DNA of 64,000 nucleotides from Caulobacter sp. Lineage in GTDB: Bacteria > Pseudomonadota > Alphaproteobacteria > Caulobacterales > Caulobacteraceae. The stretch is taken from the NCBI GenBank assembly GCA_030680355.1, contig JAUXVF010000018.1, forward strand, positions 50,832-114,831. The letters run 5' to 3'. The notes beneath the pieces were generated by a model. That model saw nothing but the letters and a program-made list of their open reading frames with translations, made no database searches and was not told where the DNA came from. This document shows, piece by piece, positions 58,591-63,985 of the stretch. The first letter of the stretch is position 1. Every line of letters starts with the position of its first letter. The translations under genes and the position numbers were made by a program.

Positions 58591-60681
58591 TCACCAGATA
58601 CGGACGCGATCTTCCGGCTTCACGTACCATTTCTCACCGGCCTTGACGTTCCAGGCGTCATACCAGGCGTCGACGTTGCGCAGGGTGCCGATGACCCGGA
58701 ACATCGCCGGCGAGTGGGGGTCGGAAACCACCTGGTTGCGGACGGCGTCGTCGCGGTACTTGCTGCGCCAGATCTGGGCGAAGCCCAGGAAGAAGCGCTG
58801 GTCGCCGGTCAGGCCGTCGATGACCGGGGCCGGCTTGCCGCCCAGCGACAGGTGATAGGCGTCGAGGGCGATCAGGATGCCGCCCAGGTCGCCGATGTTC
58901 TCGCCCATGGTCAGGTCGCCGTTGACCTTGGCGCCGGGGACCGGTTCGAAGGCCGAATACTGGCCGCCCAGACGTTTGGTCTGGACCTCGAACTTCTCCG
59001 CGTCGCTCGGCTGCCACCAGTCGCGCAGGCTGCCGTCGGCGTCGTATTTGCGCCCCTCGTCGTCGAAGCCGTGGCTGATCTCGTGACCAATCACCGCGCC
59101 GATGCCGGCGTAGTTCACCGCCGCGTCAGCCTCGGGGTCGAAGAAGGGCGGCTGCAGGATGGCGGCCGGGAAGACGATCTCGTTGAGCGTCGGGTTGTAG
59201 TAGGCGTTGACCGTCTGCGGGAACATGCCCCACTCGTCGCGGTCGACGGGCTTGCCCAGCTTGGCGACCTCGAAGGCCCATTCGAAGGCCGTCGCGCGCT
59301 GGACGTTGCCGTACAGATCATCGGGCTTGATGGTTAGAGCAGCATAGTCGCGCCATTTGTTCGGATAGCCGATCTTGACCGTGAAGCTGGCCAGCTTGGC
59401 CTGGGCCCGGACCTTGGTCTCGGGGCTCATCCAGTCGAGCTTCTCGATCCGGGCCTTCAGGGCGACCCGCAGATCGGCGACCAGCTTCTCGGCCTTGGCC
59501 TTGGATTCGGCCGGGAAATAGGCGTCGACATAGAGTTTGCCGACGGCCTCGCCGAGGTTGCCGCTGACCAGGGTCACGCCCCGCTTCCAGCGCGCGCGCT
59601 GCTCGGGCTGGCCGCTGAGGGTCTTGGCCCGGAAGTCGAAATTGGCGTCGACGAAGGCCTTCGACAGATAGGGCGCGGCCTGGTCGGCGGTGTGGAAGGC
59701 CTGCCAGGCCTGCAGGGTGGCGACCGGGGTCGCCGCGTAGAGGGCGGCGATCTTGGTGAAGGCGGTCGGCTCGCCGACGATGACGCGGCCGGCCTTGTCG
59801 AGGCTCGCGCCCTTCAGCCAGGCCTGCCAGGGGAAGCCCGGCGCCAGGGTTTCAAGCTCGGCGAAGGTCCTGGGGTTGAAGGTCTTGTCCGGGTCGCGCT
59901 GCTCGGCGATCGGCCAGCTGGCCTCGGCGATGCGGGTTTCCAGGGCCAGGATGTCGTCGGCCGCCTTGTCGGCGCCGGCCCATCCCGCCAGGGTCAGAAG
60001 CTGGGCGACATAGGCCCGGTAAGCAGCCTTCTTCTCGGCGAACTTGGCGTCGAGATAGTAGTCGCGGTTGGGCAGGCCCAGACCGGCCTGGCTGACATAG
60101 CCGACGCTCTGGTCGGGGTCCTTGGCGTCCTGCGAGATATAGGTCCCGAAGAAGGAGCCGCCGAAACCGCCCTGGGTGGCGCCCATCATGGCGGCGAGAG
60201 CCTCGCGGGTCTTGGCGGCCTTGATGGCGGCCAGCGGCGCGGCCAGCGGCTTGGCGCCCAGCCCCTCGACCCGGGCCTCGTCCATGAAGCTGTTGTAGAG
60301 GCCGCCGATCTGCTGCGCCTCGCCCTTGGCGGCGGGGGTGGCGGCGGAGGTGTCGATCACCGCCTTGATGCGGGCGTCGGACAGTTCGCGCAGGACGTTG
60401 AACGACCCCCAGCTCGACCGGTCGGACGGGATCTCCAGCGTGTCCAGATAGCGGCCCGAGGCGAAACGGACGAAGTCGTCGCCGGGTTTGATGGACCGGT
60501 CCATGGCCTCGATATCGAAGCCCCAGGGCCCCATGCGGGGCGCCTTGGCCAGGTCGGCCTGGGTGGTGGCCGTAGCGGCGGTGGCCGTGGCCGCCGGCGC
60601 GGTGGCGGCGAAGGCCGGAGCGGCGCCGAGGCCGGCGGTGATCGCCAGGGCGGCGGCGGCGGAAAGCAGAACGCGTTTCAT
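58591..60681 (-). CDS. M13 family metallopeptidase (PepO/neprilysin-like), copy 2
   Basis: VIGHEISHGFDDEGRKYDADGSLRDWW, NAYYNPTLNEIVFPAAILQPPFF; clear paralog of copy 1. Confidence 0.95.
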   Translation of the reverse strand: MKRVLLSAAAALAITAGLGAAPAFAATAPAATATAATATTQADLAKAPRMGPWGFDIEAMDRSIKPGDDFVRFASGRYLDTLEIPSDRSSWGSFNVLRELSDARIKAVIDTSAATPAAKGEAQQIGGLYNSFMDEARVEGLGAKPLAAPLAAIKAAKTREALAAMMGATQGGFGGSFFGTYISQDAKDPDQSVGYVSQAGLGLPNRDYYLDAKFAEKKAAYRAYVAQLLTLAGWAGADKAADDILALETRIAEASWPIAEQRDPDKTFNPRTFAELETLAPGFPWQAWLKGASLDKAGRVIVGEPTAFTKIAALYAATPVATLQAWQAFHTADQAAPYLSKAFVDANFDFRAKTLSGQPEQRARWKRGVTLVSGNLGEAVGKLYVDAYFPAESKAKAEKLVADLRVALKARIEKLDWMSPETKVRAQAKLASFTVKIGYPNKWRDYAALTIKPDDLYGNVQRATAFEWAFEVAKLGKPVDRDEWGMFPQTVNAYYNPTLNEIVFPAAILQPPFFDPEADAAVNYAGIGAVIGHEISHGFDDEGRKYDADGSLRDWWQPSDAEKFEVQTKRLGGQYSAFEPVPGAKVNGDLTMGENIGDLGGILIALDAYHLSLGGKPAPVIDGLTGDQRFFLGFAQIWRSKYRDDAVRNQVVSDPHSPAMFRVIGTLRNVDAWYDAWNVKAGEKWYVKPEDRVRIW

Positions 60682-60930: not shown

Positions 60931-61350
60931 CGCTTTCGCCGCTTCACGCCGCAAGCGGCTGAAGGTGGGGAGGTGGTGCGGAGCGCCCCGGCTGTCGCCG
61001 GTTGCAGAGGGTGGTGTGGTGGACGCCTGCGGCAGTCGAAACGCTCCGCGATGACCGTTTTGTCGGGGGCGCCGGTAGGCAGCCGTTTGAAGGCTTAGCC
61101 GACGCGCTCCCGGCGGGCGGGCCGGCGCACTGATGCCGATCCCGATGGTTCCCCGCTCGATCATCGTCCCCGCCGCCGTAAGGTCGTATGCGCCTACGCC
61201 CTCCCCGTGCGGTGGGGATGGGAAGGAGTATGGGGGCGGTTGAAGGGGTGGGGACTGGTTGGGGTGAATGCACGGGGCAGGGCGGGCGAGAGGGTGTGGA
61301 ATCAAGGGGTTGGGCGCGGCAATCCGGCCCCTATCCACGGCCCTTCCTCT

Positions 61351-61359
61351 CCCGGAGGG
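61351..61359. repeat. Left flanking direct repeat (target-site duplication)
   Basis: CCCGGAGGG, repeated at 63610-63618. Confidence 0.75.
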
Positions 61360-61389
61360 GGTAACGATATACGTGACAAAGCAAACGCC
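61360..61389. repeat. Left terminal inverted repeat
   Basis: GGTAACGATATACGTGACAAAGCAAACGCC. Confidence 0.88.
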
Positions 61390-61588
61390 CGGCGCTACAG
61401 ATTCAAGCGACAGGCCGGCGCTTACTGAGGTTGAGGTTTCCGAGGCGATGATTGAGGCGGGCGTCAGCGCCCTTTCCCAGATATTCGGCCACTACGATCT
61501 ACAGCCCGCTTCGGAGAGGCGTGCTGCAAGAGCGGTGTTTCTCGCAATGGCGGCGGTGGCCCCATCTCGGGAAAGGCTGCAAACATAA
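61373..61588 (+). CDS. Passenger ORF, hypothetical small protein
   Basis: GTG inside the TIR; VTKQTPGATDSSDRPALTEVEVSEAMIEAGVSALSQIFGHYDLQPASERRAARAVFLAMAAVAPSRERLQT. Confidence 0.5.
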   Translation: MTKQTPGATDSSDRPALTEVEVSEAMIEAGVSALSQIFGHYDLQPASERRAARAVFLAMAAVAPSRERLQT

Positions 61589-62054
61589 GGTCGTTGTGGA
61601 CGACCTTGATTTCCACGACCAGGGCAACGATGTCCTTCTCCTTAACGATTATGCGCCGCGCCTGAGTGTCTGGGGTTTCTCGGTAGTCCCAGCGGCAGAC
61701 CCTGCCGCGTTCATCAACGCCCATCATGTGGTGGATGTAGACATTCCGCCTTTTGGCGAGCGATGAAACTTTGTCGAGGGCCGCGTTAAGTGCTGTTCGT
61801 GTTTGTTTGCTCGCCGTTCGGGCGGCCACCGCGCGGATGATTTCTATTTTTCCCGCGGTGCTGTTCAGGGCGAACAAGATGACCTGTGCGGGCTCTTCTT
61901 CAATGCCGAGGACCTTGGCCAACACCTTTGGGAACGTGTGCTCCAAGTAGGCCCATATGGTGGTAAGCTCTCCTAACTGGAAGGCGATATTCGGAGCCCC
62001 CGCAAGGGAGCCAACATGCCAAGTCTCGTTCTTCGGGAGTCCCGTTGTGCCCAT
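61464..62054 (-). CDS. Passenger ORF, HEPN-like hypothetical protein
   Basis: LGELTTIWAYLEHTFPKVLAKVLG..., AKRRNVYIHHMMGVDERGRVCRWDY; RNxxxH motif. Confidence 0.65.
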   Translation of the reverse strand: MGTTGLPKNETWHVGSLAGAPNIAFQLGELTTIWAYLEHTFPKVLAKVLGIEEEPAQVILFALNSTAGKIEIIRAVAARTASKQTRTALNAALDKVSSLAKRRNVYIHHMMGVDERGRVCRWDYRETPDTQARRIIVKEKDIVALVVEIKVVHNDLMFAAFPEMGPPPPLRETPLLQHASPKRAVDRSGRISGKGR

Positions 62055-62202
62055 GACCGACAAGCCCTCTGAAGCTGAAGAAAAGGCCGCTGAAGCCGAG
62101 TTTCAGCGGGTGCTGGGTAATCTGGCGAACATGCCGCACAAGCCGCACGCCCCGTCCAAGCCAGAGCCGGGACGAAAGCGCGGGCGACCGAAGGCTAATT
62201 GA
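62053..62202 (+). CDS. Passenger ORF, 49-aa basic-tailed protein
   Basis: MTDKPSEAEEKAAEAEFQRVLGNLANMPHKPHAPSKPEPGRKRGRPKAN; GGGAG upstream of ATG. Confidence 0.55.
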   Translation: MTDKPSEAEEKAAEAEFQRVLGNLANMPHKPHAPSKPEPGRKRGRPKAN

Positions 62203-62494
62203 CCGCGCCGCCCACGGCGCTCGGGTCCACGTAGCCATTTCGTTTTAGGTAGTCGAACAGGGCGACGGCCAGATCATGGGCCGCGTTCGGCGGCATGATC
62301 GCCCGCCCGATAACTACCCGATTGACCGGCCCCGGACTGGTCGAGTGATCAACCCGAATGGATTCCAGCGTAATGGCGACATTGCCCCCCACCGAACAAA
62401 GGCCGGAAAACGCCGAGGCAAAAACCTCTGGGGCGTGTGGATTGTCGATAAAGGCAAGCGGCACCGGCTCATCGGTCATCGTGCAAATGTCCAT
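62195..62494 (-). CDS. Passenger ORF, DUF3467-like hypothetical protein
   Basis: MDICTMTDEPVPLAFIDNPHAPEVFASAFSGLCSVGGNVAITLESIRVDHS...VVIGRAIMPPNAAHDLAVALFDYL. Confidence 0.6.
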   Translation of the reverse strand: MDICTMTDEPVPLAFIDNPHAPEVFASAFSGLCSVGGNVAITLESIRVDHSTSPGPVNRVVIGRAIMPPNAAHDLAVALFDYLKRNGYVDPSAVGGAVN

Positions 62495-62605
62495 GTGCGA
62501 CCCTGAGCGCCGGTTCTGGCGTTCAGCGGATGGGGGCCACAACTGGACCGTTATTTCTGCCGATTCGCAGCTTTCCGCATAACCTGAAGACGCTTCGCCT
62601 TCTGC

Positions 62606-63544
62606 TTACGCGTGCGCGGCCTCACCAGTCCGCCGATAAGTCAGGCGCTTGCCACCGATGCCGCGCAGCAGTTCGTCGGTGCGCATCGTGTCGTTGATGC
62701 CGAGAGCGATGCGGTTGGAGTAGCGGAAATCGAACTCGGCCAGATAGCGGGCGAGGTGGGCCTCGCTGACGTGATGGAAGGTCCCGACCACGCCGCGTTT
62801 CAGGAGGGAGAAGAAGCCCTCGACGGTGTTTGAGTGAGCGTTACCGCGCACATATTCCTCGATGCCGTGGTTGACCGTCTCATGGCTGGCGAACTCCTTG
62901 CCGACCGGGCGGTATTGGCCCGCATCGTCGGTCATGAGGGCCGACTTGCGGTCAACGTGCTTCACGAGAAGCGGACGCAGGGTTTTGCCGCTGACGTTGG
63001 CGACATGGAATGAACGGGCGCGGCCACTGCGCTCGACCAGGGTGAAGACAACCTGCTTGCCGACCGCGCCGATATTCTTGGCGTTGCGCTTGGACAGGCG
63101 CTTGTTCTTCTCCTTGCCGCCCACAACGCTCTCGTCGGCTTCGACGGTCTTGCCCTCGCCGCCCATCGGAGCGGGGTTCGCTTCGGCCATAGCCTCGCGG
63201 ATGCGGTGGCACATGAACCACGCGGTCTTGTAGGTCACGCCAAGGGTGCGCCCGACCTGATGGGCCGAGATGCCCTTCTTGCTGGACGACATGAGATAGG
63301 TCGCCAGCAGCCACTTGTTCAGCGGCACCTTGGAGCGTTCGAAGACGGTTCCGACGGTGATGGTGAACTGCTCACGGCAGGCGTTGCACTGATAGAGCCC
63401 GGCGCGGTGCGCAGAGCCCTTCAGAGCCGTCGCCTCATCAATCACGCCACAGTGCGGGCAGATCGGACCATGCGGCCAGCGGGTCGCTTCGAGGTGTTCG
63501 CGGGCCTTGTCGGCGTCGGTGAAGATCGGTGCGGTGAGGTTCAT
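62606..63544 (-). CDS. IS1595 family transposase (ISXO2-like)
   Basis: N-terminal zinc ribbon CPHC...CNAC, VEADESVVGGKEKNKR, LMTDDAGQY, NAHSNTVEGFFSLLKRGVVGTFHHVSEAHLARYLAEFDFRYSNR. Confidence 0.95.
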   Translation of the reverse strand: MNLTAPIFTDADKAREHLEATRWPHGPICPHCGVIDEATALKGSAHRAGLYQCNACREQFTITVGTVFERSKVPLNKWLLATYLMSSSKKGISAHQVGRTLGVTYKTAWFMCHRIREAMAEANPAPMGGEGKTVEADESVVGGKEKNKRLSKRNAKNIGAVGKQVVFTLVERSGRARSFHVANVSGKTLRPLLVKHVDRKSALMTDDAGQYRPVGKEFASHETVNHGIEEYVRGNAHSNTVEGFFSLLKRGVVGTFHHVSEAHLARYLAEFDFRYSNRIALGINDTMRTDELLRGIGGKRLTYRRTGEAAHA

Positions 63545-63579
63545 GGCTGTAGTCCTTCGATGAAGGAATCCTACCGAAC

Positions 63580-63609
63580 GGCGTTTGCTTTGTCACGTAT
63601 ATAATCACC
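63580..63609. repeat. Right terminal inverted repeat
   Basis: GGCGTTTGCTTTGTCACGTATATAATCACC. Confidence 0.88.
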
Positions 63610-63618
63610 CCCGGAGGG
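63610..63618. repeat. Right flanking direct repeat (target-site duplication)
   Basis: CCCGGAGGG. Confidence 0.75.
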
Positions 63619-63661
63619 AGAGGTGGCCTGGCGGAGCCAGGTCGGAGAGGGAGAAACCGCT

Positions 63662-63985
63662 CTATCCGAACGGAAACCCCGGCCCCCGCCAGCCCAGTTC
63701 CGAAGCGATCAGATCCAGCGCCGCGTCGACGTCCTCCAGCACCAACCGCGCGGGCAGTCGCAGCGTCCGGACGCCCTGCCCTGCCACCCAGGCGTCGCGC
63801 GCGGCGTCGCGCATTCTCTGGTCCTCGTCCTGGTGAACGCCGCCATCAACCTCGACGGCCAGCCTGACCCGGTCGCAGTAGAAGTCGAGCACGTAGGGGC
63901 CGAAGGGATGCTGGCGTCGAAAGCGGAGGCCCTGGAACCGGTTGGCTCGCAGGACGCGCCAGAGAGCCGTCTCGGACGGCGTCAT
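63662..63985 (-). CDS. DUF559 domain protein (Vsr-like endonuclease fold)
   Basis: MTPSETALWRVLRANRFQGLRFRRQHPFGPYVLDFYCDRVRLAVEVDGGVHQDEDQ. Confidence 0.9.
   Translation of the reverse strand: MTPSETALWRVLRANRFQGLRFRRQHPFGPYVLDFYCDRVRLAVEVDGGVHQDEDQRMRDAARDAWVAGQGVRTLRLPARLVLEDVDAALDLIASELGWRGPGFPFG

Follow-up and report, generated by a model that had tools for sequence, protein, structure and literature searches.

A Caulobacter IS1595-family transposon with a fixed backbone and two exchangeable gene slots, one of which holds a putative HEPN-like ribonuclease

Results

A complete IS1595-family transposon

The window analyzed here is a 64,000-nucleotide stretch of a Caulobacter sp. genome (contig JAUXVF010000018.1), and positions given without a contig label refer to it. 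Positions 61360–63609 are occupied by a complete IS1595-family transposon ("tIS"), the ends and transposase of which are intact. The left (distal) terminal inverted repeat (TIR; GGTAACGATATACGTGACAAAGCAAACGCC, 61360–61389, plus strand) is identical at 27 of 30 positions to the right TIR (63580–63609), the minus strand of which reads GGTGATTATATACGTGACAAAGCAAACGCC. The element is bracketed by two copies of CCCGGAGGG, at 61351–61359 and 63610–63618, which represent the target-site duplication. According to the rule quoted in PMC8101967, the IS1595 family generates 8-bp target-site duplications. The 9-bp match observed here contains these 8 bp, which leaves the exact end of the element ambiguous by one base. 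The element is present in a single copy in its own genome, and GC content falls from ~0.67 in the left flank to 0.57–0.64 within it.

The transposase gene (62606–63544, minus strand) encodes a protein of 312 residues composed of an N-terminal zinc ribbon and a DDE domain, in which D137, D206 and E242 are invariant in our transposase alignment (A1). The protein matches the Pfam entries PF12762 (E 9.8e-40) and PF12760 (E 1.4e-13) and the NCBIfam entry NF033547 (E 7.8e-61). The combination of a DDE_Tnp_IS1595 domain, the zinc ribbon and the 27/30 TIRs identifies the element as a member of the IS1595 family. The original prediction had described an IS1595-type transposon with non-transposase ORFs, matching TIRs, precise boundaries and a transposase that fills about 940 bp of 2250 bp, and the transposase domains, TIRs and direct repeats agree with this description, save for the one-base ambiguity at the end.

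A σ70-like promoter sequence (GTGACA-17-TAGGAT, 63568–63596, minus strand) reads into the transposase gene, with its −35 box inside the right TIR; it is the only promoter-like site that was found within 61300–63700. This transposase-side pattern is enriched among the relatives described below (43 of 75 elements versus 8.2 expected). Both TIRs of the elements hold a TTGACA/GTGACA box, with −10-like hexamers at the proper spacing above expectation; on the distal side, such hexamers were seen at the right spacing in 24 of 63 elements (4.9 expected). In the left TIR, the GTGACA core is placed like the −35 box of a promoter-like arrangement directed inward.

The insertion site

The element is inserted in a hairpin, CCTCTCCC-GGA-GGGAGAGG, the two parts of which are now found around 61346–61359 and 63610–63624. 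The hairpin CCTCTCCC-n-GGGAGAGG is dispersed at about 20 places in the same genome (G000; for example, C27:96067–96085), as compared with one occurrence of the reversed control pattern, and the joined sequence expected of the empty site, CCTCTCCCGGAGGGAGAGG, is present elsewhere in the genome. A direct empty site was not found in the sister genomes, in which the flanking M13 gene is present (36 of 37) and the intergenic region and the DUF559 neighbor are not syntenic. To the left of the element, two neighboring M13-type peptidase genes that are 61% identical were noted (58591–60681 and G000 C17:107180–109252), and a DUF559 (endonuclease-like) gene is positioned directly to its right (63662–63985, minus strand).

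Exact 8-bp duplications flank 69 of the 81 related elements described below, and the empty sites of relatives are palindromic well above random positions, with a peak 4–8 bp from the center (0.48–0.64 versus 0.27). Among the empty sites of 69 relatives, elements with TIRs starting CCTAATT reside in AGG-N8-CCT sites and those with TIRs starting GGGAATT reside in CCTCCC-N8-GGGAGG-like hairpins; the sequence at the TIR tip is mirrored in its target.

Passenger genes

The remaining 1.25 kb of the element holds four ORFs. ORF1 (61373–61588, plus strand), which uses a GTG start inside the TIR and converges with ORF2, encodes a conserved small protein of 71 residues with a ...EIEITPEMIEAG...-type motif. 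Homologs of ORF1 occupy the same position in the related elements L031 (51% identity), L078 (43%) and L032 (45%), and the TIR and the 5′ part of ORF1 together form a distal conserved block (61359–61461; element coordinates 2163–2265) with 82% DNA identity to L031. ORF2 (61464–62054, minus strand) encodes a HEPN-like protein of 196 residues, a predicted ribonuclease, with the sequence RNVYIH at residues 103–108. It fills a segment, termed slot B (61462–62050), that shows no DNA homology to L031 despite an 83% identical transposase. The CATG palindrome at 62052–62055 contains the start codons of both ORF2 (minus strand) and ORF3 (plus strand), and marks the boundary of slot B. ORF3 (62053–62202, plus strand) encodes a K/P-rich protein of 49 residues (MTDKPSEAEEKAAEAEFQRVLGNLANMPHKPH...) that is near-universal in related elements. 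A second exchanged segment, slot A (62196–62582), is likewise devoid of DNA homology to L031 and holds ORF4 (62195–62542, minus strand; up to 115 residues), the product of which is weakly DUF3467-like (Pfam E 0.19). A relative of ORF4 outside the elements is a hypothetical protein encoded on a Rhizobium plasmid (47% identity), and none was found in the 81 related elements. All four ORFs had been predicted (61373+, 61464−, 62053+ and 62195−); two starts required correction, in that ORF2 most likely begins at the ATG at 62054 rather than the TTG at 62063, and ORF4 more plausibly begins at an internal ATG near 62494.

ORF2 and ORF3 look like real proteins under purifying selection, as judged from codon comparisons: ORF2 and its L078 counterpart share 43% of their residues (dN 0.57, dS 2.08, dN/dS ~0.27, a dS above 1 being imprecise), and ORF3 is 83% identical to that of L031 (dN 0.13, dS 0.73, dN/dS ~0.18). 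Because homologs of ORF1, ORF2 and ORF3 occupy the same positions in related elements, the three are more than chance ORFs.

Related elements share one layout

Scanning with three related transposases (A1) yielded 80 loci in genome contigs and 26 in viral contigs, and 118 loci with related transposases, many in metagenome-assembled genomes, were examined in total, including those from the search for relatives. A convincing TIR pair, together with 0.9–2.2 kb of cargo beyond the transposase C terminus, was identified at 81 of the 118 loci, a count that required 0.8–2.3 kb after the transposase. The concern that other copies with the same TIRs might lack the cargo is thus not realized. Of the four TIR-like pairs outside this size range, three (two very long, one short) have scores close to the TIR finder's background, and the fourth is L134. 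A complete cargo-free copy was not found among the 118 loci. The reading of the group as a bare insertion sequence was rejected, the sole compact TIR-bounded copy (L134) being an internal-deletion derivative with a truncated transposase.

The layout common to the elements is transposase, slot A, ORF3, slot B, ORF1 and TIR. Profiles detected ORF3 in 69, a HEPN-like slot-B protein in 42 and ORF1 in 30 of the 81 elements. Searching 289 genomes of the class with the ORF3 profile uncovered 19 further loci, 13 of which have an IS1595 transposase within 1.5 kb, and about a third to half of the loci with HEPN-type ORF2 relatives have neither ORF3 nor a transposase nearby. The suspicion that the cargo occurs mainly outside such elements, with conserved synteny, is not borne out for ORF3; ORF2 belongs to a wider gene pool. 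The original prediction had underestimated the feature: it is the slots that are fixed, and the gene set varies.

ORF2 and ORF3 start head-to-head on a single CATG in 44 elements (38–44 of 61 in a second count), a set that was chosen for having CATG and an ORF3-like partner. Shine-Dalgarno-like motifs precede both starts more often than in mononucleotide shuffles (21 of 41 versus 5.7 and 16 of 41 versus 6.8), each motif lying within the opposite gene. No signal of RNA structure was detected in the ORF2 leader or the ORF3 5′ region (mean z of −0.5 and −0.7, respectively).

Members of the group were also observed on IMG/VR contigs classified as viral (L111–L115 and L118–L133), and phage-borne copies may, therefore, exist. 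The Caulobacter genome itself contains a remnant of a related element, L003 (~1500–2240; contig C28, 132600–133340), which has one TIR end and no transposase, and retains a truncated ORF3, the CATG and a HEPN-like ORF2′ with the sequence RSIAAH. Two cargo variants thus coexist in this genome.

Slot contents are exchanged behind near-identical transposases

We compared 25 pairs of elements whose transposases are 78% or more identical. DNA homology extends over the entire transposase gene (1.00) and over none of slot B (0.00); in the same pairs, coverage is 5% for slot A, 51% for ORF3 and 54% for the last 100 bp. In the 14 measurable pairs, in which homology extends up to the ORF3 start, its end lies exactly at CATG in 9 and within 1 bp of it in 11, and per-position identity declines from ~0.65 to ~0.25 right after the CATG, which is itself 100% identical by selection. 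Six genomes with transposases that are 96–100% identical contain six different ORF2s, all joined at CATG, and unrelated slot-B genes are present in elements with transposases up to 99% identical. When the present element is compared with L031, the transposases are 83% identical and the ORF2s unrelated; when it is compared with L078, the transposases are 60% identical and the ORF2s 43% identical. The occurrence of unrelated slot-B genes next to near-identical transposases and the stop of homology at CATG argue that the contents of the slot were swapped, not diverged. The L033/L035 pair has slot A in common and differs in slot B, and therefore the two slots move independently. The group, which is widespread in Alphaproteobacteria, has a fixed backbone (TIRs, transposase, ORF3 island and ORF1 end) with two exchangeable gene slots. 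The transposon at 61360–63609 thus resembles a mobile carrier of interchangeable genes and not an isolated curiosity.

About a fifth to a quarter of the CATG-paired slot-B genes are not HEPN-like; slot B is, therefore, not HEPN-specific. The only Pfam-recognized family among the non-HEPN slot-B proteins searched is DUF3800, encoded in L101 (E 4.6e-15). A second recurrent family (L075, L077, L123, L259 and L264), which shows the pattern LDH ... GGN..LW.L ... KH, gave no Pfam match for the one member run, and a third (L103 and L257), without a recognizable domain, accompanies transposases 96–99% identical to those of HEPN-carrying elements; the grouping into families was made partly by eye. Elsewhere, slot A contains DUF1508, DUF3892 or a Cas2-like protein, among others. 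The slot-A products of L032, L038, L039, L081, L100 and L118 have a small Cas2/VapD-type appearance (Pfam Cas2, E 3.6e-4 for L118; the others by eye).

ORF2 resembles HEPN proteins

HEPN proteins are recognized by the sequence Rx4-6H with a polar residue after the R, mostly N, D or H, which is tied to RNase activity and to abortive-infection (Abi) and toxin–antitoxin (TA) roles (PMC3710099). RNVYIH of ORF2 has this form. Slot-B proteins are usually ~200 residues in length and contain R[ND]xxxH around residue 100, and R[NDHST]x3H was found in 35 of 43 of them, as compared with a mean of 2.3 in shuffled sequences, nearly always starting at residues 86–118. This comparison with shuffles is the fair test, since the members of alignment A2 (32 sequences, ~16% identical), in which the R and H of the motif are the only invariant columns beside M1, were picked by the motif. 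The A2 profile recovers ORF2′ of the L003 remnant, a protein of the same genome that was outside the training set, with E 5e-11. Pfam gave no HEPN match for ORF2; the protein matches the HEPN part of the PADLOC CARF-HEPN (E 2.7e-4) and Csx1 (E 0.0048) models. Too few sequences were obtained when HEPN_Cthe2314 and Csx1 family members were sought for a reference profile, and sequence searches of the PDB returned nothing useful.

The AF2 model of ORF2 (pLDDT 87.8) is a helical bundle in which R103 and H108 end the fourth helix, which is followed by a beta hairpin, and the model of a second slot-B member is also confident (pLDDT 81.2). Foldseek detected no significant fold match for the AF2 models. 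The VIA-align hits included HepS (9oij, Z 7.0), AF_0298 (Z 6.9) and HepT (7ae6, Z 6.3), scores that are not above those of unrelated helical bundles; the fold matches are consistent with HEPN without being decisive. We consider it likely that ORF2 is a divergent HEPN-domain protein and, going by the motif, it is probably a ribonuclease.

Discussion

We propose, with a probability of roughly 60%, that the transposon is a backbone with swappable slots and that the HEPN RNase of slot B is a conflict gene that pays for the carriage of the element. According to this model, the transposase would be transcribed from the promoter with its −35 box in the TIR and would move the unit into hairpin-like intergenic sites with 8-bp target duplications. 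Co-resident or newly arriving related elements would exchange slots A and B by recombination through short conserved blocks, and in the Caulobacter genome the present element and the L003 remnant, at a minimum, are potential co-resident partners. Homologous recombination, known only by its outcome, could be located in the ORF3 and ORF1/TIR blocks. The HEPN protein of slot B would be a metal-independent RNase that is kept nearly silent or inactive, and antisense overlap of the ORF2 5′ region with ORF3 might keep ORF2 expression low. Phage or another stress would trigger the RNase, which would then act as a conflict gene of the abortive-infection type; phage defense or addiction may be the function of the cargo. 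One could also envision a gene-capture platform, in which an active, site-precise mechanism beyond general homologous recombination inserts and swaps conflict genes precisely behind a start codon provided by the ORF3 island, constituting an integrase-free cassette system that provides a fast-changing anti-phage/anti-element RNase repertoire across Alphaproteobacteria. We regard this extension as distinctly improbable.

One alternative is that ORF2 is the HEPN toxin of an addiction module, with ORF1 or ORF3 as the antitoxin, so that cells losing the transposon would pay a penalty, as has been proposed for the TA modules of Tn3-family transposons. HEPN toxins are common among TA toxins (PMC3710099), Tn3 transposons hold and exchange TA modules, including one HEPN-MNT pair (PMC7157771), and ORF1 and ORF3 directly flank ORF2. 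However, ORF1 and ORF3 are on the opposite strand and form no operon with ORF2, and so neither is the adjacent, co-directional antitoxin of known family that characterizes a type II system; no MNT or other antitoxin family was matched in Pfam or NCBIfam. The retention of ORF3 beside wholly unrelated slot-B genes, including non-HEPN ones, also speaks against a specific pairing, and we think that an addiction module is unlikely. The slots might instead hold any captured short genes that lack a common function, and the variety of slot A and B contents (DUF1508, DUF3892, Cas2-like, DUF3467-like and DUF3800) fits such ordinary hitch-hiking. It is a quite unlikely explanation, given that a single motif class (RNxxxH) accounts for ~80% of slot B and that the arrangement with ORF3 is strict.

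A role of ORF1, ORF2 and ORF3 as accessory proteins that regulate transposition and do not serve the host would agree with the status of ORF3 and ORF1 as backbone genes tied to the element, ORF1 even beginning in the TIR. A regulator dedicated to one transposase would not be expected to give way to unrelated proteins, as happens in slot B, and ORF2 relatives are also encountered away from transposases; for the three genes together we judge this very improbable, and for ORF1 and ORF3 alone a transposition role is quite possible. Finally, most of the proteins encoded in slot B are alike in length and in having the HEPN motif, as would be expected if one ancestral HEPN gene had diverged in place under extreme diversifying selection and nothing had been swapped. 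This is scarcely credible when transposases that are 97–99% identical accompany ORF2s with no relationship recognizable to BLAST, including one from a different family, and when homology ends abruptly at CATG. Related ORF2s are, moreover, joined to distant transposases (43% and 60% identity, respectively, between this element and L078), and the dN/dS of ORF2 is below 1. The pattern of slot-B homology, with respect to L031, L078 and the stop at CATG, therefore makes divergence in place unlikely, and we favor a backbone with swappable slots.

The IS1595 family was reportedly established in the founding paper of Siguier et al. in 2009. Members with passenger genes include tISCpe8 and MTnSag1/tISSag10 (cited in PMC5704250); they have in common with the present element an IS1595 DDE transposase, TIRs, 8-bp duplications and extra genes between the ends. 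tISCpe8 carries lincomycin resistance, and both elements are described as mobilizable; the Caulobacter element has no resistance gene, and its HEPN-like cargo sits in one of two fixed slots within a conserved ORF3/ORF1 backbone. The closest precedent is provided by the exchangeable TA modules of Tn3-family transposons, including the HEPN-MNT case TnSod9 (PMC7157771). Both systems feature compact conflict-type genes in a fixed position, repeated recruitment and exchange between related transposons. They differ in that the elements described here have another type of transposase, no recognizable antitoxin and no resolvase or res site at which exchange would take place, the exchange boundary being an overlapping start codon. 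With the HEPN RNases (Abi proteins, Csx1/Csm6, HepT and HepS), ORF2 shares Rx4H with a polar residue after the R, a helical core with a hairpin and a weak CARF-HEPN/Csx1 profile match, but it is outside any Pfam HEPN family, has neither an MNT partner nor a CARF domain, and matches their fold at the background level of helical bundles. Near-identical mobile platforms with different genes in one and the same slot are reminiscent of integron gene cassettes, as a functional analogy only; each slot contains a single gene and an integron integrase was not found among the ORFs of the element. No description of this gene set in IS1595 elements was found in our literature search, which covered few subscription journals.

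The genes that small insertion sequences carry as passengers are commonly regarded as accidental. In the present group, the positions of the cargo are fixed and their borders base-precise, and one cargo gives way to another next to a transposase that hardly changes. Near-identical elements that differ in their cargo offer natural comparisons for studying both cargo function and the acquisition of genes by transposons. If the slot-B proteins are phage-defense HEPN ribonucleases, these ~2.2-kb transposons would rank with the smallest mobile elements that carry defense genes.
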